Shown here: piece after piece, positions 26,469-37,930 of the stretch
How the letters are laid out: each line of letters begins with the position of its first letter
How positions within the stretch are numbered: the stretch's first letter is position 1
Assembly: GCF_015265455.1 (NCBI RefSeq)
Contig: NZ_CP054492.1
Location: 1,302,001-1,366,000 of the forward strand
Length of the DNA: 64,000 bases
Direction of reading: 5' to 3'
Source: Candidatus Sulfurimonas baltica
Lineage (GTDB): Bacteria > Campylobacterota > Campylobacteria > Campylobacterales > Sulfurimonadaceae
The notes under the pieces: generated by a model
Told to the model about the DNA's origin: nothing
The model's database searches: none
What the model saw: the letters and a program-made list of their open reading frames with translations, nothing else
Made by a program: the position numbers and the translations under genes

Positions 26469-27761
26469 TTAAAAAAGCTCAAAATCATCTTCATCTTGCT
26501 GAGAGACTTCTTTTTTCTCAAATATTGACTGCAATTGCAAACAAGAGCTTAAAAGTGATGAGTCAAGATAATGAACATCATTTGCTTCTATTTTTATAAA
26601 TATATTATTTCTCCATTCTCCTATATCATCTAAGAGAAGCATAAATAAAAGGGCAAACTTTTTATGATCTGCGGGGTCAACGTGTTCAATATCTAAATTT
26701 CTCATAAACTCATTGAGTGTTTTAAGAGCATAGGCAAAATGTTCAAACTCTATCAGCTCTTCAACGACATTTATATATGTTTCAAACAACTCCGTAATCT
26801 CAAGTAGTATATTTTTACTAGCATCTTTTTCAAAGGCAATTGCCTTAATCTCTACTTCATACAAGGTGCTCTCAAGTATTTCTATTTTATCAATAACGTA
26901 TACAGCAGTGTTTTCTACATAATCGGCTGCAGTTGTTTTACTAAAATGAACTTTGCCTAAAATATTTTGCTGATAGTCAGTTACTTCAATTTTTTCAACT
27001 TTTTCAATACTTATTGGCTTTGCTTTTGGAAGGCGAAAAGAGAGCTCTTTATTTTTAAGAATAAAAATGGCAGAACTGTAGTTTTTTACTAATGTTTTTT
27101 GTATAACCAACTCGCTTATAATATCTAGAGGTGTAAGCGTTAAGTATAAATTATCATCGTTCTCTTCGGCAACAATTGTAAATACTTGGTCTTTTTTTAA
27201 ATTGAGTTGCCCATAAGCGTATATCATTCTTATACAATCTTCCAAGCTTTCTATCTCATAATGATGGTTATTTAAATAATAATCCCACAATTCAGATAGT
27301 GACTGCAACGAAGAGATGTTAAAGACCATAGTCCTTGAGTAAATTTTTTCAGTAAAAGCGTTAACGGCATTTACATTGTAGAGTTTTCTTTTACGAAGCT
27401 CGACAATTTGCAAGTAGTTCTTCATTCTTTGATGAAAAAGTCCACTCTCAATTGGTTTGACAATATAGTCTTCTGCGCCATTAGCAAGCATTTGATTTTT
27501 TGACTCTTCGTCATCCAAGGCGCTCAAGGCTAAAATCATCACCTTTTTATCAAATGATTTTATAATTTTTGTAGCTTTTATCCCATCGACATTAGGCATC
27601 ATGATATCCATAAAAATTATGTCATAATGCTTTTTTTTGCACATATCAATAGCCTCTTGACCATCTTTGGCTTCAGAAATTTCAATATTCTCAAACTCTT
27701 CTAAAAGAAGCTCTACTGTCATTCTATTATCGCTATTATCATCAACAATTAATATTTTCAT
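26469..27761 (-). CDS. Response regulator with an uncharacterised 300-residue output domain
   Basis: 430 residues from the ATG at 27761, one base after the stop of the hybrid kinase gene. Receiver domain residues 1-120: LIVDDNSDN, phospho-acceptor Asp52 in FMDIMMPNVDG, LSALDDEES and VKPIESG. The remaining 300 residues match no output domain I know (no HTH, GGDEF, EAL or HD): alpha-beta part, then mostly helical (FELEHF..., LLDDIGEWRNNIF), acidic tail. As last gene of the che operon it is probably the target of the hybrid kinase. Confidence 0.75.
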   Translation of the reverse strand: MKILIVDDNSDNRMTVELLLEEFENIEISEAKDGQEAIDMCKKKHYDIIFMDIMMPNVDGIKATKIIKSFDKKVMILALSALDDEESKNQMLANGAEDYIVKPIESGLFHQRMKNYLQIVELRKRKLYNVNAVNAFTEKIYSRTMVFNISSLQSLSELWDYYLNNHHYEIESLEDCIRMIYAYGQLNLKKDQVFTIVAEENDDNLYLTLTPLDIISELVIQKTLVKNYSSAIFILKNKELSFRLPKAKPISIEKVEKIEVTDYQQNILGKVHFSKTTAADYVENTAVYVIDKIEILESTLYEVEIKAIAFEKDASKNILLEITELFETYINVVEELIEFEHFAYALKTLNEFMRNLDIEHVDPADHKKFALLFMLLLDDIGEWRNNIFIKIEANDVHYLDSSLLSSCLQLQSIFEKKEVSQQDEDDFELF

Positions 27762-27762
27762 T

Positions 27763-29292
27763 TTATGCACCTTTTTCTTGTTTTTCATTAAATGTGAGAG
27801 TAAATTTTGTTCCACTACCCTCATTTCTATCTTCGACTTTGTAGCTTATGTGTAAATCTGTACAAAGAAGTTTTACAAAATACAGACCAACTCCTGTACC
27901 TTGACTTTTTCTTTCAAGAAGTCCATCATCCTCCTGAGAATAAAGGTTAAATACGGCATCTTTGTCTTTTATACCAGGTCCATTATCTTCCACTGAAACT
28001 GTTATATGTTCTTTGTTTAAAACAGAGATTTTAATTTCATTATTGCCATACTTTATAGCGTTTGAAACTATATTTGAGAATATCTGCTTAACGCGAAATA
28101 CATCATTGCTTATTAAAGCGTCATCTTGAACATCACATGTTAAAGTAATATTTTTTTCTGTTAAAAGTGAATTATATCTTTTCATAACTTCAGAAACAAT
28201 ATCCTTAGCATTAAATACCGAGTAATTATAGGTTAACTTATGTGCATTTAGTTTAGAGACCTCGAGTATTTGCGTTACATTCTCAAGCATATCATGGGCA
28301 TTACTTAAAACTGATTCAAGCAAACTAGAAAGCTTTTCCTTATTTAATTCTTTTGGCAATTCTATCTGTTTTTTAACATATTTAGTAAAGTTAATTATAG
28401 CATTTAGTGGTGTTTTAAGCTCATGCGTAAAGACAACAAGAAAAGATTTTTGTGCCTCTGCAATTTTAATTCGTTTTATTTTTTCCTGTTCTTCTAAAAA
28501 TATTTTTCTTTTAAAAGTTACAGCATCAGTAACATCATTTCTTATAGCCATATACTCTTTAATATTGTCATTTTCATCAAGCAAAGGGATGATTGTAGAT
28601 TCGGCAATAAACTCAGAGCCATCCTTATTTAGATTGACCATTCTCTCTCTCCATATTATTCCTGAAGTTATAGTTTTCCACATATCTATATATATTTCAT
28701 TAGGATTGTTTGGATGTCTAAACATACTGTGAGAGTGCCCTATCATCTCTTCTCTCGTATATCCAGTAATTTTACAAAAATTGTCATTAACGTAAGTGAT
28801 AATACCGTTCATATCTGATTTTGATATAATTGAAGCTTCTGTAAGTGCATTGAAGTATTGAAGATCATCAGAGTGGAAGGTTAAAGATACTTTTTTCAGT
28901 ACATCAAAAACCTGTTGACTTTTTAAAGGCTTTTGTATAAAACCTTCAATACCTATATTGATTGCCTCTAGCATATGTTCATCATGTGCAGATATTAAAA
29001 TGATTTTTTGTTTTTTGTTTGTTTGTAAAATCATTTTACTCATAGTAAGACCATCCATACGTGGCATCTGAATATCACTTATCACAATATCATAATATCT
29101 ACCATTGTCTAAAAAGTATTCTCCATAAAGGTCTAACCCCTCTTGTCCATCTGCTGCTACATGTACCGTTTGAACTAGATGAGAGAAAATTTCCGCTGTA
29201 CTTTTTCTAATTTGTTCATCATCTTCTACATATAAAAGAGTTAGATTTTTTGTTATTTTTTTTAATTCTGCAATATTATTATGGTTATTCAA
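27763..29292 (-). CDS. Hybrid sensor histidine kinase (receiver-PAS-HisKA-HATPase)
   Basis: 509 residues, cytoplasmic. Receiver at about 16-130 (YVEDDEQIRK, Asp73 in VISDIQMPRMDG, QKPLKS), PAS/PAC at about 150-260 (ITYVNDNFCKITGYTREEMI, AIRNDVTDAV), HisKA with His290 in FTHELKTPLNAII, HATPase with IFSNIVSNAIKYGN, VEDNGPGIKD and GTGVGLYFVKL. The Aer-like PAS motif (FRHPNN) suggests possible redox or oxygen sensing, as in Aer PAS domains binding FAD; this is inference. Two bases after cheB. Confidence 0.85.
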   Translation of the reverse strand: MNNHNNIAELKKITKNLTLLYVEDDEQIRKSTAEIFSHLVQTVHVAADGQEGLDLYGEYFLDNGRYYDIVISDIQMPRMDGLTMSKMILQTNKKQKIILISAHDEHMLEAINIGIEGFIQKPLKSQQVFDVLKKVSLTFHSDDLQYFNALTEASIISKSDMNGIITYVNDNFCKITGYTREEMIGHSHSMFRHPNNPNEIYIDMWKTITSGIIWRERMVNLNKDGSEFIAESTIIPLLDENDNIKEYMAIRNDVTDAVTFKRKIFLEEQEKIKRIKIAEAQKSFLVVFTHELKTPLNAIINFTKYVKKQIELPKELNKEKLSSLLESVLSNAHDMLENVTQILEVSKLNAHKLTYNYSVFNAKDIVSEVMKRYNSLLTEKNITLTCDVQDDALISNDVFRVKQIFSNIVSNAIKYGNNEIKISVLNKEHITVSVEDNGPGIKDKDAVFNLYSQEDDGLLERKSQGTGVGLYFVKLLCTDLHISYKVEDRNEGSGTKFTLTFNEKQEKGA

Positions 29293-29293
29293 T

Positions 29294-30334
29294 TTATTTT
29301 CCTTTCTGTAAATAATATAAGATATCTTTTGGAAGTTTATCCAATGAATTTTGTTTTATAACTGCCCCCAAATCATACGCTACTTTAGGCATGCCATAAA
29401 CTGTAGAGCTTTTACTGTCCTGTCCAAAAGTCATGGCTCCCGAGTTTCTCATATTTAACAATCCCTTTGCTCCATCAGAACCCATCCCCGTCAAAATAAC
29501 ACCAATAGCATTTGCTCCGGCCATTTTTGACACAGAGTCAAACATGACATCAACTGATGGGCAGTGACCTGAGACTTTTTCTCCACTATATATATTAACA
29601 TAATATCTATGCCCTGAACGTCTTAATGTCATGTGCTTATCTCCGGGAGCAATCAACACTTGCCCTATCTCAACGGTATCTCCATCTTTTGCTTCTTTAA
29701 CATCCATTTTACATATACTATCAAGTCTCTGTGCAAATTGTTTAGTAAAATCTACAGGCATGTGTTGTACTATCAATATAGCAGGACTATTATGAGGGAA
29801 TTGAGCCAAAAACACTTTTAATGCCTCAACACCACCCGTCGATGAGCCAACAGCAATAAGCTTCTGAGTAGTCTCTAAAGTAGGTGTTTTATAAAGAAGT
29901 TCTCTATTTGTATCAATTTTAATATTTTTATGAACTTGCACCATAGCTGCACTTTTTACTTTTTTTAAAAGTTCACTGCGAATTTCATCAGAATTTTCAT
30001 ATATATTAGAGTGTGGCTTGGCAACAAAATCAATAGCACCCAACTCAAGAGCATCAAGTGTTGTCTGGGCTCCCCTTTTTGTGAGAGAAGATACCATTAC
30101 AACAGGAATAGGCAGATATTTCATAAGTTTTCTTAAAAATGTTATCCCATCCATTCTTGGCATCTCTATATCCAAACATATGACGTCTGGTTTATTTTTT
30201 AATATTTTATCTCTTGCTATATAGGCATCAGGAGCTGTCGCTACGCTTTCTATTTCATTGTCACTCTCTAAAATATCAGTAATAATAGCTCTTGCTGTGG
30301 CGCTGTCGTCAACTACTAAGACTTTTATCCCCAT
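29294..30334 (-). CDS. cheB: Chemotaxis methylesterase/glutamine deamidase
   Basis: 346 residues. Receiver (VLVVDDSATARAIITDIL, Asp55 in CLDIEMPRMDG) plus CheB catalytic domain: Ser in AVGSSTGGVEAL, His in IVQHMP, Asp in LTGMGSDGAKG. Removes methyl groups from receptor glutamates. It keeps the receiver that, as I recall, the Campylobacter jejuni CheB lacks. Two bp after cheD. Confidence 0.95.
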   Translation of the reverse strand: MGIKVLVVDDSATARAIITDILESDNEIESVATAPDAYIARDKILKNKPDVICLDIEMPRMDGITFLRKLMKYLPIPVVMVSSLTKRGAQTTLDALELGAIDFVAKPHSNIYENSDEIRSELLKKVKSAAMVQVHKNIKIDTNRELLYKTPTLETTQKLIAVGSSTGGVEALKVFLAQFPHNSPAILIVQHMPVDFTKQFAQRLDSICKMDVKEAKDGDTVEIGQVLIAPGDKHMTLRRSGHRYYVNIYSGEKVSGHCPSVDVMFDSVSKMAGANAIGVILTGMGSDGAKGLLNMRNSGAMTFGQDSKSSTVYGMPKVAYDLGAVIKQNSLDKLPKDILYYLQKGK

Positions 30335-30336
30335 AA

Positions 30337-30801
30337 CTATTCATCACCACTTTTTGTATATTTTAAAAAAACTTTTCCTGTATCACTGCGCATCATAATT
30401 CGTCTTCCCTTTTCACCGCCAACATCTTGGGCTGTAATTGGAATACCATATTCTCTTAATATCTCTTTAGCAATTAAAATATTTTTTCGTCCTATCATCA
30501 TCTCAACGCTTGAAACATCAATTACATTTGCCCCACCAAATATTTTAGCTTCCATGTTTTTTATCTCACAACCAATATTTACCATACTTTCAATTAAGCG
30601 AGGAATTGATATATTCCCATATTTTGGACTTTGAAGACCATTTTCATTCCACAAAGGGACTAAATAGTGGTTCATTCCACCAACGCAATTTACACTATCG
30701 TAGAGACAAACGGCAATGCAAGAACCTAGTATTGTACTAATTTCAGTTTCTCTTGCACCAATATGAATTTCTCCAACATGAATAAATTTCTTTATGTACA
30801 T
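30337..30801 (-). CDS. cheD: Chemoreceptor glutamine deamidase
   Basis: 154 residues. Catalytic Cys in STILGSCIAVCLYD and His in GGMNHYLVP; KIFGGANVI and GRKNILIAKEIL are typical of CheD. Deamidates receptor Gln to Glu, and in some systems is controlled by CheC, which is not present here. Between the degenerate kinase gene (1 bp) and cheB. Confidence 0.93.
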   Translation of the reverse strand: MYIKKFIHVGEIHIGARETEISTILGSCIAVCLYDSVNCVGGMNHYLVPLWNENGLQSPKYGNISIPRLIESMVNIGCEIKNMEAKIFGGANVIDVSSVEMMIGRKNILIAKEILREYGIPITAQDVGGEKGRRIMMRSDTGKVFLKYTKSGDE

Positions 30802-30802
30802 A

Positions 30803-31693
30803 TTAAAATTCTACCGACCCGTCACCTTGGTCAAATAAAAACTCATTAGAGCCTATTCCTGTTGATATGTCCATGTCTGTTTCATCTATTTTACTTATTA
30901 AAACTGTAAAAACTGTTTTCCCGTTTTCTATGGTATTGTCAATAGTACCGTCAAGTGCTTCGACCATTCCTCTGGTAACACTTAGTCCAAGGCCTAATCC
31001 GGCCGTAGCTCGAGTATTTCCCGTCTCAAAGTGAGTAAAACGATTATAAATCTCTTTCGTATGCTCTTCATATACACCCTCCCCTGAATCTTTCACTTTA
31101 ATGATGTAGTTTTTATCATCACAATCAACAGTAACTACAACTTCAGAGTTATTATAAGAATATTCACACGCATTTGATATTAAGTTAAGTAAAATAATAT
31201 TTATCTTTTGAGAATCTGAAATAACTTTTTCTTGACATCTGTTTACATACTTTAGTTTTAAAGATTTTTCTTCTATAAGATAGTTAAAATACTCTAGCTT
31301 TTCATTAAAAATACTCTCAATATCAACATCGGAGTAATCATTGGCTGTCTCTCCTGCCTCTATCTCTGAGGCTGCAAAAATATTTTTTAAACTAAAATCT
31401 AGTTTTAACAACTCACTCTGCATCATAGAGGATAACTTTTCAATTTTTGGATCTGTTGTTTTTTTTACTATCATATTGGATATGTTAAGCAATGACGACA
31501 TAGGGTTGTTAAACTCATTTTTTATAAGAGACAAAAATTGGCTTTTGACCTCTTGTGAGTTTTTATTTTTTTCATTTAGTTCAAGAAGTTTTTTTGTCAT
31601 AAACTCCATCTCTAAAATAGAGGCTTTTTTCTCTTCAAATCGGCGCCCGATTTCTTTAAGTAGCTCACTATCTGCAATATTTGTAATTTCCAT
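30803..31693 (-). CDS. Histidine-kinase-like protein lacking the phospho-acceptor His
   Basis: 296 residues, no membrane segment. Coiled N-terminus, DHp-like helix with FLSLIKNEFNNPMSSLLN where the usual FLxxxSHExxxPL has His; residue 59 here is Asn (codon at 31517-31519). HATPase domain looks intact: IILLNLISNACEYS (N box), KVKDSGEGV (G1), GLGLGLSVTRG (G2). So it should bind ATP but not autophosphorylate at that site. Lies between cheR and cheD, in the che operon, so likely modulates receptor or CheA signalling. It may act as a pseudokinase or heterodimer partner. Confidence 0.78.
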   Translation of the reverse strand: MEITNIADSELLKEIGRRFEEKKASILEMEFMTKKLLELNEKNKNSQEVKSQFLSLIKNEFNNPMSSLLNISNMIVKKTTDPKIEKLSSMMQSELLKLDFSLKNIFAASEIEAGETANDYSDVDIESIFNEKLEYFNYLIEEKSLKLKYVNRCQEKVISDSQKINIILLNLISNACEYSYNNSEVVVTVDCDDKNYIIKVKDSGEGVYEEHTKEIYNRFTHFETGNTRATAGLGLGLSVTRGMVEALDGTIDNTIENGKTVFTVLISKIDETDMDISTGIGSNEFLFDQGDGSVEF

Positions 31694-31702
31694 AATTTTT
31701 CC

Positions 31703-32533
31703 TTAATTAAGTTTATATATTGATGGTGCAACTAATTTGTATGTATAATCTTTTTTATGTATTGATTCTGAGTGCCCAATAAATAGCAATGACTTTTTGT
31801 TGAGTAATTTTGCAAACTGTTCAAGAAGTTGATTTTGTGTTGGACGGTCAAAATATATCATCACATTACGACAAAAAACAATATTGAAATAATTTTTGAA
31901 CATTGAAAAGTCGCCTGTAACTAGATTAAAAACACGAAAAATGATATATTTTTTAATTTCATCTTTAACAACAAATGTGCTAATTCCATTGCTATCTTTT
32001 ATGCTGTTAAAATGCTTTAATAGAATGTTTTTCGGCATATTCTCTACATCTTTTTTTGTATAAACACCATTAATGGCTTTTTTCAAAATTTCTTCAGATA
32101 TATCTGTTGCTAAAATTTTAATATCCCACTCATCAAAGTTTTTCAAATGTTCTTTTAAAAATATAATTATACTATATGGCTCTTGCCCACTAGAACAAGC
32201 TGCCGACCAGATACGTATTCGTCTATTCTTTACATCAAACATTTCATTTAAGTGCTCTTGCATATAAATCCACTGATTCTCTTCACGAAAAAAAGATGTT
32301 ACATTTGTTGTAATTGCGTTTACCAACAACATAAGCATCTGACCGCTTTTATCACTAGCTATTTTTTCATAAAGTTCTTCATAACTTGACAATCCAAACT
32401 CTCTTATCCATTTTCTAAGTCGTGACTGAACAAGAGTACGCTTATGGTCTGCTAAAGAAATGCCAACATCATTATATATGAGTTTCTGGAACATCTTGAA
32501 TTCTGACATTGTCAGAGCTTGCTCTGTATACAC
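31703..32533 (-). CDS. cheR: Chemotaxis protein methyltransferase
   Basis: 276 residues. N-terminal helical domain (FQKLIYNDVGISLADHKRTL), SAM-binding RIRIWSAACSSGQEPYSI, LATDISEEIL, and IVFCRNVMIYFDRPTQN near the C-terminus. Methylates receptor glutamates using SAM. The MCP upstream ends without a C-terminal CheR-docking pentapeptide. Four bp after cheA. Confidence 0.95.
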   Translation of the reverse strand: MYTEQALTMSEFKMFQKLIYNDVGISLADHKRTLVQSRLRKWIREFGLSSYEELYEKIASDKSGQMLMLLVNAITTNVTSFFREENQWIYMQEHLNEMFDVKNRRIRIWSAACSSGQEPYSIIIFLKEHLKNFDEWDIKILATDISEEILKKAINGVYTKKDVENMPKNILLKHFNSIKDSNGISTFVVKDEIKKYIIFRVFNLVTGDFSMFKNYFNIVFCRNVMIYFDRPTQNQLLEQFAKLLNKKSLLFIGHSESIHKKDYTYKLVAPSIYKLN

Positions 32534-32537
32534 TTAT

Positions 32538-34634
32538 TTACGCGTCCCTATTAAGGAGCTCTTCTACATTTAGAATAAGTGCTATTTCGCCACTGCCCAT
32601 AATAGCACTGCCTGAGAGCTCCTTAATTCTTGACAATGTAGCACCAAGAGATTTTATAACAACCTGCTGTCTTCCAACAAGATCATCTACCAAAATAGCA
32701 TATTTACCTTTTTCACTCTCTACACACATAAGTGTAGATTCCCAAATATCAGGTTTTTCGTCACCTATCTCAAGCACATGATTTAACCTTACAACAGGGA
32801 TCATCTCTCCTCTTAAATCAACAAATTCACCTTTACGTTTAATGGAGTGAACAATCTCTTTAGATGGAATAAATGATTCTACTACAGTAAGTGTTGGGAT
32901 AATAAAAGTATCACCAGCACTTTTAACAATCATGCCATCAATAATAGCTAAAGTTAATGGGAGTAAAATAGTAAAGGTAGAGCCTTTTCCTACCTCAGAA
33001 GCAATTTCAACTCGTCCATGTAGTTTCTCAATAGATGAGCGAACAACATCAAGCCCAACCCCGCGACCAGAGATATCACTAATTGCATCTGCCGTTGAAA
33101 AACCAGCTTGCATTATTAGAGAAAATACTTGCATATCTGTTAAATCATCCTCAGCATCAATAAGTCCGCGCTCTACTGCTTTTGAAAAGACTTTATCACG
33201 GTTTATTCCCCGTCCGTCATCTGATACCTCAATAGCTATATTACCGCCTCTGTGAAATGCTCTGAGGGTTATAACGCCTATGGCTGTTTTTCCTGATGCA
33301 ACTCTATCTTCTGCACAATCTTCCAATCCATGATCAATCGCATTACGCATAATATGTATAAGAGGATCAGAAAGAGCATCTACCATTGTTTTGTCTATCT
33401 CGGTATCTGCACCATCAATCTCTAAAGATATCTCTTTATTTACTTTTTTACTTGCATCACGAGCAACCCGTTTCATCTTCTCGAAAGTATCATTTACAGC
33501 TACCATTCGTAGAGACATAACTCTATTTTGAATTAAACGTGTAATTTTTGAAAGAACATTTATAGTTTTAGAGATACCCTCGCTTTTAATCTTTTTTATC
33601 TCTTCATTTTCAGCAAGAAAGTTTTGTGCTATTACCATCTCACCAATTGAGTCAAAAAGTTCATCAAGCTTAGTGGTGTCAACTTTCACAAAAGAGCGTG
33701 CATCATTTTTTCTGCGACCAACTCCAGCTATTGTGTCATCTCTATCGTTTTCTCTACGACCAGATGTTTTCACTTCATTGTCAATTTCTCTACGTCCAAA
33801 TTTAATATCTTCATCTTTAAGCGGTTGAGGTTCAGGTTTTTTCTTTACTTCTCTTTCTACACGTACAAAGCTGTATTCATGTTCATCTATATATTCAAAC
33901 AACTCTTCAATTTCGTCTGATGGCTTATCAGAAGCTAAGAATATATCTACATGTTTAATACTGCTTCTTTCAGGGTTGAATTCTTCAAGTGGAAGAATGC
34001 CATCCATATTCCACCAAGATTCAAGTATTTGCCCCTCATCACTAAGTAGTTTAAATAGTCGTGCATGATCAAACCCACGAAAAAATATATCATCATCAAG
34101 CGTTAAAGAAATATGATATAACTCTTCACCATATTTAAGCATATTTTTCATTCTAAAAATATCATCTTCATCAAAATTGTTTTCTATTACTTCTTCTTGC
34201 TCTGAAAATTCAGTTGTTAAATCATCAAGTTCAACTTTTGTCTCTTCTGTGCTTTGTGATAAAATAGATTTTATACCTACTAAAATATCGTTATAATTAT
34301 CAGGAACACCATCATTACCATCAACTTCTCTCCACATAACATCTTTAATGATATCAACAGAGGATAAAAAAAGATCAATATTTTGTGGATTTACAATATC
34401 ATCAGAATTACGATAGTAATCAAGTACATCTTCAAAATGGTGAACAAATTCACCAAGCCTAGTAAATCCAAAAGAGTTAGCACTCCCTTTTAGTGTATGT
34501 ACACCGCGAAAGAGTTCATTAAGCAAATCTTTATCTTGTGGATTATCTTCAAAATTTATAATATCAACATCTAGTTTCTCAATAATCTCTGTTGCTTCTT
34601 CAATAAATATATCCCGTATCTGTTGTTTAGTCAT
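32538..34634 (-). CDS. cheA: Chemotaxis histidine kinase
   Basis: 698 residues. HPt domain with His46 in FRGVHTLKGSANSFGF, an acidic linker (about 130-215), a further P2-like region (about 215-270), P3 dimer helices (FVKVDTTKLDELFDSIGEM), HATPase (DPLIHIMRNAIDHGLE, VSDDGRGIN, GRGVGLDVVRSSIEKLHG) and a C-terminal CheW-like domain. No receiver at the end. Overlaps the STAS-like gene by 8 bp upstream. Interacts with the MCP and CheW of this operon. Confidence 0.95.
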   Translation of the reverse strand: MTKQQIRDIFIEEATEIIEKLDVDIINFEDNPQDKDLLNELFRGVHTLKGSANSFGFTRLGEFVHHFEDVLDYYRNSDDIVNPQNIDLFLSSVDIIKDVMWREVDGNDGVPDNYNDILVGIKSILSQSTEETKVELDDLTTEFSEQEEVIENNFDEDDIFRMKNMLKYGEELYHISLTLDDDIFFRGFDHARLFKLLSDEGQILESWWNMDGILPLEEFNPERSSIKHVDIFLASDKPSDEIEELFEYIDEHEYSFVRVEREVKKKPEPQPLKDEDIKFGRREIDNEVKTSGRRENDRDDTIAGVGRRKNDARSFVKVDTTKLDELFDSIGEMVIAQNFLAENEEIKKIKSEGISKTINVLSKITRLIQNRVMSLRMVAVNDTFEKMKRVARDASKKVNKEISLEIDGADTEIDKTMVDALSDPLIHIMRNAIDHGLEDCAEDRVASGKTAIGVITLRAFHRGGNIAIEVSDDGRGINRDKVFSKAVERGLIDAEDDLTDMQVFSLIMQAGFSTADAISDISGRGVGLDVVRSSIEKLHGRVEIASEVGKGSTFTILLPLTLAIIDGMIVKSAGDTFIIPTLTVVESFIPSKEIVHSIKRKGEFVDLRGEMIPVVRLNHVLEIGDEKPDIWESTLMCVESEKGKYAILVDDLVGRQQVVIKSLGATLSRIKELSGSAIMGSGEIALILNVEELLNRDA

Positions 34635-34890: not shown

Positions 34891-36870
34891 TTAGAACTCC
34901 TTAAGATCATCTTTATCTAGAGGGAAGATATCTTCTGCTCTTTTTGAAGTTTGTCTAACTGCCTGAGTTTTTTTAACTTGGCGCTTTGTTGTATTTATAC
35001 TATGTTTTTTTGTAGTTACTGCTGCCGTTGATTCACCAACCATAACAGCAATAACATTAACAATCTCTTTCATAGAGACAGCTTGTGCGCTAAGCTCTTC
35101 GGAAGCTGCAGCAGCCTCTTCGCTTGTAGCTGCATTTTGTTGGGTAACTTGGTCTACTTCACCCATTGCTATAGCAATTTGGTTCATTCCCTCGCTTTGC
35201 TCTTTTGTAGATATTGAAATTTCACTTATTAAATTAGATGTTTTACTAATGCGTTCTAGAATATCTTCAAATGACTGAGAAGTAAGTTTAGCTATCTCTG
35301 CACCTTTTTTTGTTTGATTTATTGATTCTTCAATAATAGCCGCTGTCTCAGTTGAAGCGTCTGAAGAGCGTTGAGCAAGACTTTTAACTTCATCTGCAAC
35401 AACTGCAAATCCAAGTCCATGTTCACCTGCACGTGCAGCTTCAACTGCAGCATTAAGTGCAAGAAGTTTAGTTTGTGAAGCGATCTCATCAATTGTTTTA
35501 ATAATTTTAGAAATTCGATCACTAGATTTATTAATCTCTCCCATTGCTTCAATTAGTTCAGTACCTTTTTTAGAACCATTCTCAGCAGAGGTTCTAGCCT
35601 CTTTAGCTAAGATATCAGCTTCACGAGAGTTGCTAGAGTTTTGACTATTGATTGCAGTTGATTCTTCAATCGTAGCACTAACCTGTTCAACACTACTTGC
35701 TTGCTCACTAGCACCCTCTGCTAAGCTTGTTGCAGAGTCTGCAATCTCTGATGAAGCGCTTAGTACTTGGTCATTTGCTTCTATTATTGATCTTACTGCT
35801 GCTATGATTGGTTTTGTAATAAAGTTTCCAAGTAATATAGCAATGGCAGTGATTAAAACAATGAATGCGGCTCCCATAATAAGTGTGCTGTTACGAAGAT
35901 CAGTAACAGAACTAAATACTTCTTCTTCTTCAATCTGAGCAATTAGTGCCCATTTTAAATCAAGAAACTCAAAAGATGCATATGATGATAAAACTTTATC
36001 ACCATCATAGTCTAGAATGCTTTCTGTACCTGTTCCTCCAGATAGAGCAGCCTTTGACGATGATGTCTTTACTGAACCATTAGCTGGGTTTTTAAAAGAA
36101 GCTAAAAGTGAACGGTTTATTGGGTCAACAAAGCTATCACTTCTCATAAGATAATCTTGTCCAACAAGATATGTCTCTCCAGTTTTATCCATTCCTGTTC
36201 TATCTTGCATTATTTTATTAATAGCTTTAGGATTAAGTTGAATTGTAACAACAGCCTCAACTGCTCCACCTTCCATAATAGGGACACCCATAAACATTGC
36301 AGGCTCTCCATTTTGCATAGGGTCAGGTGCCATGTCTGTCATATGAGGCTCTCTATCTTTAACTGCTATACGCCATGCTTCTGCAAGACCACTATTACGA
36401 TACTGCCCTGAACCAAGGTTTTGTCCAAGTTCTGTTTCTTTTTCAGAAGAGTACATAACATGTCCATGCTCTGCACAGATTATAAAAAGGTCATAAAGAC
36501 TATTCTCTTCTGTGTACTTTTTAAAATATTTATCATATTTTGAATAAATAGCAAGCGTCTCAGGTTTATTAGTCACATCAAATAGTCCATTATCTTTAAT
36601 GCTATCTGATTCATGTAAAACTAATAGCTCATTATTCATAGCATGAACATTTCTATTGTCAGAAAGATTTTCAACGCCAGACTCAAGCATTTCAAAATAA
36701 GTCGTCAGTTGATTTTTCTTTAAATCTCTTGCTATCTCCATTTTATCAATTGCTTCTGCATTAAGTGCATCACTAGATTTAATATATGATGTTAATGCTA
36801 CAACTATAAAAGGTATAAACCCTACCAATAATAGCGCTATTACTAATTGTTTTTTAATCGTCATCTTCAT
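34891..36870 (-). CDS. Methyl-accepting chemotaxis protein, dCache-type
   Basis: 659 residues. TM1 about 9-27 ([20 protein letters not shown]), a periplasmic part of about 300 residues with dCache features ([47 protein letters not shown]), TM2 about 325-347 ([19 protein letters not shown]). The HAMP domain is short or absent: signalling helices begin soon after TM2. Signal tip [21 protein letters not shown] and [16 protein letters not shown]. Many Glu/Gln pairs for CheR/CheB/CheD. Start overlaps cheW by 4 bp. Confidence 0.92.
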
Positions 36871-37382
36871 TTTTCTTCCTCTTTTGTATGTAAGTTTTCT
36901 TGTTCTAATTTACTAATATTTAGTAACTCTTCTGGTTCAAATATTTTCTCTAGATTTAGCAACATAATAACATCATTATTCACTTCAGCTACATTCTCAA
37001 TAAAAGAGGTGTCAATATCACTTCCAAAATGAGGTGCATCTGAGATGCTATCATCGTTTAAGGAGAGAACATCCTCTACATGGTCAACTATAAAACCAAT
37101 ATATACTTTATCAACTTCATATATAATGATTGCAGTATTGATATCCATCTCACGCTCTTGCATACCAAACTTAAGTCTTATGTCAACTACTGGAATAATA
37201 GAGCCTCTAAGGTTGATTACACCCTTTACGAATGGAGGTGTTTTTGGTATATGAGTGATTGTTATAGGAGCAATAATCTCTTTTATTTTAGATATATCAA
37301 TTCCGTACTGTTCTTCATCAACAAAAAAGGTTAAATACCTATGTGCCGCGCCAAGATCTTTTGTTTTTTTCTTATTATCCAT
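36867..37382 (-). CDS. cheW: CheW coupling protein
   Basis: 171 residues. [40 protein letters not shown] and [13 protein letters not shown] are diagnostic of CheW. It links the MCP to CheA. Overlaps the MCP start and follows cheY after 3 bp. Confidence 0.95.
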
Positions 37383-37385
37383 AAA

Positions 37386-37772
37386 TTAGATTCCTAATAC
37401 CATTTTAATGGCTTTAATTAACTTTTCATCACTAAAAGGCTTAACTAGCCAACCGGTAACACCAATCTCTTTCCCTTTCATCTTCATTTCAGCTGAGCTC
37501 TCCGTAGTCAAGATAAGAATCGGCTTACTTTTAAAATTAGCAGTTTGTTTTAGCTCTGCTGCTAAATCTAAACCATTTAACTGAGGCATATTTATATCAC
37601 TAATCAGCAAATCATAATCTTCAGTTGCACCAATCAGTGCATCGCGCAACTCTGCCGGATTCACATACGTCTTTAAGACTATTGATCCGTCGCTAACTAA
37701 ACTTTCCAAAGCCATTTCCGCTGTTGCAAGAATGGTCTTGGAATCATCAACAATTATAATTTTTTTACTCAT
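37386..37772 (-). CDS. cheY: CheY-like response regulator
   Basis: 128 residues from the ATG at 37772, preceded by GGTGGAG; a TTG start five codons upstream is less likely because the ribosome-binding site lies within it. Single receiver: IIIVDDSKTI, Asp59 in LLISDINMPQLNG, TTESSAEM, WLVKPFSDEKL. First gene of the 11-gene chemosensory operon. It may act on the motor or on the other kinases here. Confidence 0.9.
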   Translation of the reverse strand: MSKKIIIVDDSKTILATAEMALESLVSDGSIVLKTYVNPAELRDALIGATEDYDLLISDINMPQLNGLDLAAELKQTANFKSKPILILTTESSAEMKMKGKEIGVTGWLVKPFSDEKLIKAIKMVLGI

Positions 37773-37930
37773 ATTACTCTCCACCAAATTAGTTATCCGA
37801 GAAATTTAACTTTCTCGAATATTTATTATATAAACATTAGATGATTGTACTAGAAGGAATATAAAAGCCATATTAAATAAACATAAACTATACATAACAA
37901 TTTAACTAACTAAAGTAAAAAAAGAAATAA

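Follow-up and report, generated by a model that had tools for sequence, protein, structure and literature searches.

A conserved family of His-less histidine-kinase cores encoded next to cheD in Campylobacterota chemosensory operons

What does a histidine-kinase core without its phospho-accepting histidine do in a chemosensory operon? The window, by which we mean the whole 64,000-nucleotide stretch analyzed here from the 2.74-Mb, single-contig genome of Candidatus Sulfurimonas baltica, carries on its minus strand a gene cluster in the order cheY-cheW-receptor-cheA-cheR-pseudokinase-cheD-cheB-hybrid kinase-REC protein. The gene that raises the question is an ORF for 296 residues at 30803-31693, flanked by cheR (31703-32533) and cheD (30337-30801), whose product, hereafter the pseudokinase, combines an HATPase_c domain with a weakly matched HisKA domain. 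The genes further upstream encode CheY (37386-37787), CheW (36867-37382), the cognate chemoreceptor (34891-36870; dCache and MCPsignal domains) and CheA (32538-34634), in which Hpt, dimerisation, HATPase and CheW domains are matched and REC is not. Downstream of cheD follow cheB (29294-30334; REC and methylesterase domains), a REC-PAS-HK hybrid kinase with an intact His (27763-29292; THELKTP) and a REC protein whose C-terminal part is without assignment (26469-27824).

Campylobacterota F7 systems occur in two gene-order types, Arcobacter and Sulfurospirillum (F7_Sulfurospirillum), according to parts of PMC9321776. The best NCBIfam match of the window receptor is Aer2, below the cut-off of that model, and the F7_Sulfurospirillum type, as given in those parts, fits the hosts; the chemosensory system is probably F7. 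The legend to Fig. 1 of PMC9239204 includes K, a histidine kinase, among Campylobacterota chemosensory gene orders and gives no class for K. This K is probably the pseudokinase gene; it is listed there as a histidine kinase, and the legend and adjoining parts of the text are silent on a missing His. The first-pass annotation had not seen such a protein described for a chemosensory operon, and a literature search, with most subscription journals outside its scope, likewise returned no report of a His-less kinase in this setting or of the His loss of this che-operon kinase.

The pseudokinase is recognizable as a kinase core. Its HATPase_c match has an E-value of 7e-18, its HisKA match of 16.8 bits falls short of the 26.9 cut-off, and the window copy carries all three ATP boxes, N (NLISNA), G1 (DSGEG) and G2 (GLGLGL). 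No sensor domain was recognized, and neither CheC nor CheX is among its four Pfam families (E up to 0.01). A structure model built from 19 sequences (pLDDT 75, pTM 0.68) consists of a long helix, a DHp hairpin and a GHKL domain, which is the HisKA kinase core fold, with the ATP lid and the tail modelled at low confidence. GacS is the best match to the model among PDB folds and DivL (4q20) the second, and the family profile matches DivL at 1.5e-17. Membership of the DHp and GHKL fold is thus carried by the HATPase_c match, the model and the fold matches, the HisKA match alone being below its cut-off. The earlier reading of an Asn in the phospho-His place is confirmed: codon 59 (31517-31519, within FLSLIKNEFNNP) reads AAT, and an HMMER alignment to the family profile pairs Asn59 with the His of GacS (7z8n).

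The replacement extends well beyond the window. We aligned the window protein with 74 further loci, 69 of them from an order-wide search and 5 from another search, and column 59 of the resulting 75 rows holds Asn in 68, Ser in 6, Tyr in 1 and His in none; the rows include two broken copies (L134 and L135) and many close relatives, and do not represent 75 independent events. With seven further members (five Asn, two Ser), the family totals 82, of which 73 have Asn, 8 Ser, 1 Tyr and none His, giving strong orthologue support to the pseudokinase status proposed from the window sequence. Asn59 is invariant in 18 loci from named public records (20 were returned and two distant kinases left out), some of whose contigs are those of the 74-locus set, and the named records closest to the window protein are Sulfurimonas MAGs with 71 and 65% identity. 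Pseudokinase matches at E<=1e-32 are found in 68 of 398 genomes of the order, and family-profile matches at 1e-45 in 51 of 397 genomes of the phylum.

Ordinary kinases, taken as controls, retain HExx[T/N]P in 24 of 24 cases: nine from the same genome, being those with loci out of 16 other matches, and 15 from other genomes (L025-L039). When 32 chosen family members were placed with these 24 kinases in a FastTree phylogeny, the pseudokinases grouped as one clade with an SH-like support of 0.999, so that a single loss of the His is the simplest account. A search seeded with the distant branch gave 66 places at 1e-25, which by their coordinates are pseudokinase genes already found, except for G052:C130, which runs to a contig end. 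Between the window copy and its closest relative, 89% identical, dN/dS is 0.055/0.61 (about 0.09). This ratio, together with the 82 members devoid of His, rules out a read error or a decaying gene, and neither of the findings on which the pseudokinase reading could have foundered, His in orthologues or an error at the codon, was borne out.

Based on these observations, we regard the conserved pseudo-histidine-kinase family of chemosensory operons, found in Sulfurimonas-like and Sulfurospirillum-like bacteria, as real. Compared with HisKA histidine kinases, all 82 members examined lack the phospho-accepting His, and as in pseudo-histidine kinases of the DivL kind the core is kept, the His is replaced and selection is acting; to judge from the sequences, the pseudokinase is a His-less histidine-kinase core dedicated to a single Campylobacterota chemosensory system. 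DivL of Caulobacter, which has Tyr for His, likewise possesses a HisKA-type core without the phospho-His, but it has PAS sensor domains and a cell-cycle role, whereas the pseudokinase has no recognized sensor and belongs to a che operon with cheD. With bifunctional HisKA sensor kinases, represented by GacS and HK853 among the profile and fold matches, it shares the whole DHp-CA core; it differs from them in the missing phospho-His, in the lack of a recognized sensor and in the acid at +1, which is lost in 40 of 75 rows.

The residues around the lost His bear on what activity could be left. In HisKA kinases, kinase activity alone depends on the acid beside the His, and phosphatase activity alone on the Thr or Asn at His +4 (PMC3510030, in part). 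The +1 residue is Glu in the remaining 35 rows, and it is Val in all 26 Sulfurospirillum-type members (those of family f20, genera g20 and g61). An active kinase that phosphorylates another residue could be imagined from the Ser (8/82) and Tyr (1/82) found at position 59, but Asn occupies that position in 73 of 82 members and the acid required for kinase activity is so often gone that we consider this very improbable. At +4 stands Asn63 (codon 31505-31507), a residue linked to phosphatase activity in other HisKA proteins, with Asn in 71 of 75 rows and Asp in 4. The 24 ordinary kinases read also all have Thr or Asn at +4, so that its presence argues only weakly for a phosphatase; the kept Asn appears permissive for a CheY~P phosphatase and is not proof of one. 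A pure phosphatase defined by the full ExxN motif finds no support as such, Glu being present in only 35 of 75 rows and only the +4 residue being kept. Perhaps the pseudokinase does have phosphatase activity, which we consider less likely than not.

The ATP boxes have fared unevenly. Asn170 and Asn174 of the N box are present in 75 of 75 rows, and the G2 glycines in 74, the remaining row being truncated. The G1 Asp is replaced by Asn in 45 of 75 rows, including 26/26 Sulfurospirillum-type and 17/17 clade-B members, and the second G1 Gly is absent from all 26 Sulfurospirillum-type members. The description of the ATP boxes as intact therefore stands for the window copy and does not extend to the family. 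It had also been suggested that the protein is an ATP-dependent modulator of receptor adaptation, in which nucleotide binding or hydrolysis would be the switch. The invariant N-box residues, the G2 glycines and the intact G1 of the window copy speak for such a switch, and with N box and G2 kept nucleotide binding may persist, but the G1 losses weaken ATP dependence to the point that we consider this explanation improbable.

The highest conservation lies elsewhere. Scored by weighted entropy, segment 50-64, the part of the DHp domain around the lost His, reaches 0.80, the top value of 14 segments, compared with 0.76 for G2, 0.72 for the N box, 0.61 for the C-terminal tail and 0.31 for the linker before the tail. 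Such conservation of a dead active site, above every other segment scored, suggests that a partner still docks there.

Which proteins could the pseudokinase work with? The next recognized gene downstream is cheD in 74 of 74 loci, and in 72 of these the two genes overlap or lie no more than 17 bases apart; the exceptions are L111, where the ORF starts used give 302 bases, and L134, with 1183. The truncated pseudokinase of L134 (L134:4350-6663, genome G055) ends about 1.2 kb before cheD; the rest of that operon is intact and the genome nominally complete, and this is possibly a natural loss. CheD matches at 1e-10 occur in 114 of the 398 genomes of the order sample and fall into a close type (E<=2.1e-42; 71 places in 68 genomes) and distant matches only (E>=1e-29; the other 46 genomes), the cut having been chosen after the gap was seen. 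The 68 genomes with the close type are, in this one order sample, the same 68 that have the pseudokinase. Thr23, Cys28 and His45 of this CheD, a receptor deamidase, are kept in 75 of 75 rows, the window included, and we take them to have the active-site roles of their counterparts in T. maritima CheD. One locus, L098 (genome G425), has the pseudokinase-cheD pair without cheA, cheR or cheB in the stretch read, and the same genome also has a full operon, L147. The role in receptor adaptation put forward in the first-pass annotation gains indirect support from this coupling to cheD, in 68/68 genomes and 74/74 loci.

A second candidate partner emerges from a more distant cluster type (L154, L187, L189 and L193), which comprises a receptor, cheW, a CheW-REC protein (identified by Pfam in three of these loci), cheR, cheY, the pseudokinase, cheD and cheB, with a cheA of about 32% identity further upstream in the two contigs checked. 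In L187, cheY and the pseudokinase are joined as one protein of 418 residues, with REC at 5-122, a HisKA-like region below cut-off at 174-238 and HATPase at 287-394; the fusion is known from one assembly only, on the distant branch of the family. By alignment, its receiver retains the usual phosphorylation residues, and it is closest to the CheY encoded directly before the pseudokinase in L189 (48%), L193 (47%) and L154 (40%), followed by the window CheY (37%) and then by the other receivers of the window operon. The fusion to a CheY-type receiver and the adjacency of cheY point to CheY as the docked partner, and the window CheY is a candidate for this partner.

The hybrid kinase next to cheB offers another possible partner, and the pseudokinase had been proposed to act together with it. 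In this explanation the pseudokinase would form heterodimers with the hybrid kinase or some other kinase, or would regulate it in trans; the pseudokinase and hybrid-kinase genes share an operon in the window, and kinase heterodimers are discussed for the ChrS pseudokinase in parts of PMC9491836. Yet of 49 well-covered loci, each with 5 kb or more to either side, 26 show no close hybrid-kinase homologue nearby (35% identity over 200 residues; one could lie elsewhere), whereas cheD is never missing from the 74. These 26 loci, and the CheY-type receiver found fused or adjacent in relatives, weaken the partnership, which we regard as unlikely.

The C terminus raises the possibility of a passive role. 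Residues 282-296 (SNEFLFDQGDGSVEF; 30806-30850) form the conserved tail, and the final residues are Glu followed by Phe, Leu, Met or Ile in 71 of 74 orthologues. Receptors of the pseudokinase loci end in FPLxEDDLKEF or near it, and certain pseudokinase tails, such as FMFDDFDDMKEF, resemble this end. Of the 75 ORFs assigned to the pseudokinase, 29 score above zero on a receptor-tail profile; among 1108 other ORFs that are not receptors 15 do so, and 13 of these are the REC protein of the operon. A plain tail motif, defined only after the tails had been looked at, occurs in 53 of 74 pseudokinases, 46 of 50 cognate receptors, 1 of 38 REC proteins and 1 of 624 unassigned ORFs, and in none of the CheA, CheB, CheD, CheR, CheW and CheY products of the loci. 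Within the window genome such a tail is found on 1 of 19 receptors, the one in the pseudokinase operon. The REC protein of the window ends DDFELF and its orthologues DDDIEFF or similar; this tail too is acidic and hydrophobic.

These counts favor a scaffold or decoy, in which the kinase fold would be a mere dimeric platform whose tail competes with or recruits CheR, CheB or CheD. The receptor pentapeptide of F7 systems, aromatic-type at both position 2 and position 5, tethers CheR, which also speaks for a scaffold; a receptor with Val in place of the aromatic residue at position 2 does not bind CheR, as described in parts of PMC7184735. Position 2 of the window receptor pentapeptide is Leu, which counts against CheR as the tail binder. 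Against a scaffold, conservation is stronger at the DHp site, in the N box and in G2 than in the tail, one relative has a fused CheY receiver, and the distant branch has other endings. Receptor and pseudokinase tails do not covary: clade-B receptors end DLKEF and their pseudokinases mostly IEL. For the window copy a receptor-like tail was rejected by motif and profile alike: the motif is not matched, and 78 of the 1108 other ORFs reach its profile score. Because the window tail fails both tests we keep the tail out of the core explanation, and a purely passive scaffold appears to us rather unlikely. The receptors of the second cluster type end in the aromatic pentapeptides EFKKF, DFKAF, GFERF and GFEKF, which fit the canonical CheR tether motif; DLKEF of the first type does not.

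The best-supported reading, to which we assign about an even chance, is that the pseudokinase is a partner of CheD that reads CheY and perhaps quenches CheY~P. In such a mechanism: (i) the DHp helix would still offer a docking site to a response regulator, CheY~P being the likeliest, as it does in ordinary kinases and in DivL, which binds DivK~P (PMC4211667, in part); (ii) the pseudokinase would sense the CheY~P signal and possibly abolish it; (iii) it would pass the CheY~P state to CheD and so to receptor adaptation; and (iv) many relatives, though not clearly the window copy, may be tethered by a receptor-like tail to the binder of the receptor tail. The pseudokinase would thus be a kinase-dead, CheY-docking regulator that works with CheD and is CheC- or DivL-like in its logic. 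CheC of Bacillus is a CheY phosphatase and a partner of CheD (PMC3513319, in part); the likeness would lie solely in the proposed logic of a CheY~P reader or phosphatase coupled to CheD, CheC belonging to a different domain family. Against this reading stand other CheY-phosphatase candidates of the window genome, namely five CheX matches and one CheC match above cut-off and CheZ matches below cut-off, as well as the truncated gene of L134. A more specific scenario, tentative and on the improbable side, has a single conversion: in the ancestor of the CheD system, a sensor kinase core would have become a CheY partner that acts as a phosphatase alone or only reads, replacing CheC in the control of CheD, with a receptor-tail copy holding it near the adaptation enzymes in many lineages.

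Accounts of chemotaxis adaptation usually feature CheR, CheB, CheD and CheC, CheX or CheZ. If the proposed reading is correct, the pseudokinase would be a further adaptation component that co-occurs with one CheD type in 68/68 genomes, would suggest a second route for CheY~P feedback on CheD, and would represent a natural separation of the kinase and docking functions.

Two neighboring ORFs deserve mention. Between cheD and cheB of the second cluster type lies an ORF for 266-276 residues (L154:5585-6415, L187:4490-5290 and L189:4837-5649), for which the L187 and L189 copies give weak CobQ/MinD/ParA-type matches below cut-off; it is perhaps an array-positioning ATPase. In clade B, a gene between cheR and the pseudokinase had been labelled a hybrid kinase from a weak BLAST match, a label rejected because Pfam on 3 of 15 finds no kinase domain. 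This protein of 453-465 residues, encoded upstream of the pseudokinase in L136-L138, L140, L141, L143, L146-L148, L150-L153, L155 and L156 (for example L155:4609-5970), has PAS and a weak, below-cut-off MCPsignal match in the three scanned copies, and is perhaps a pseudo-receptor beside the pseudokinase.
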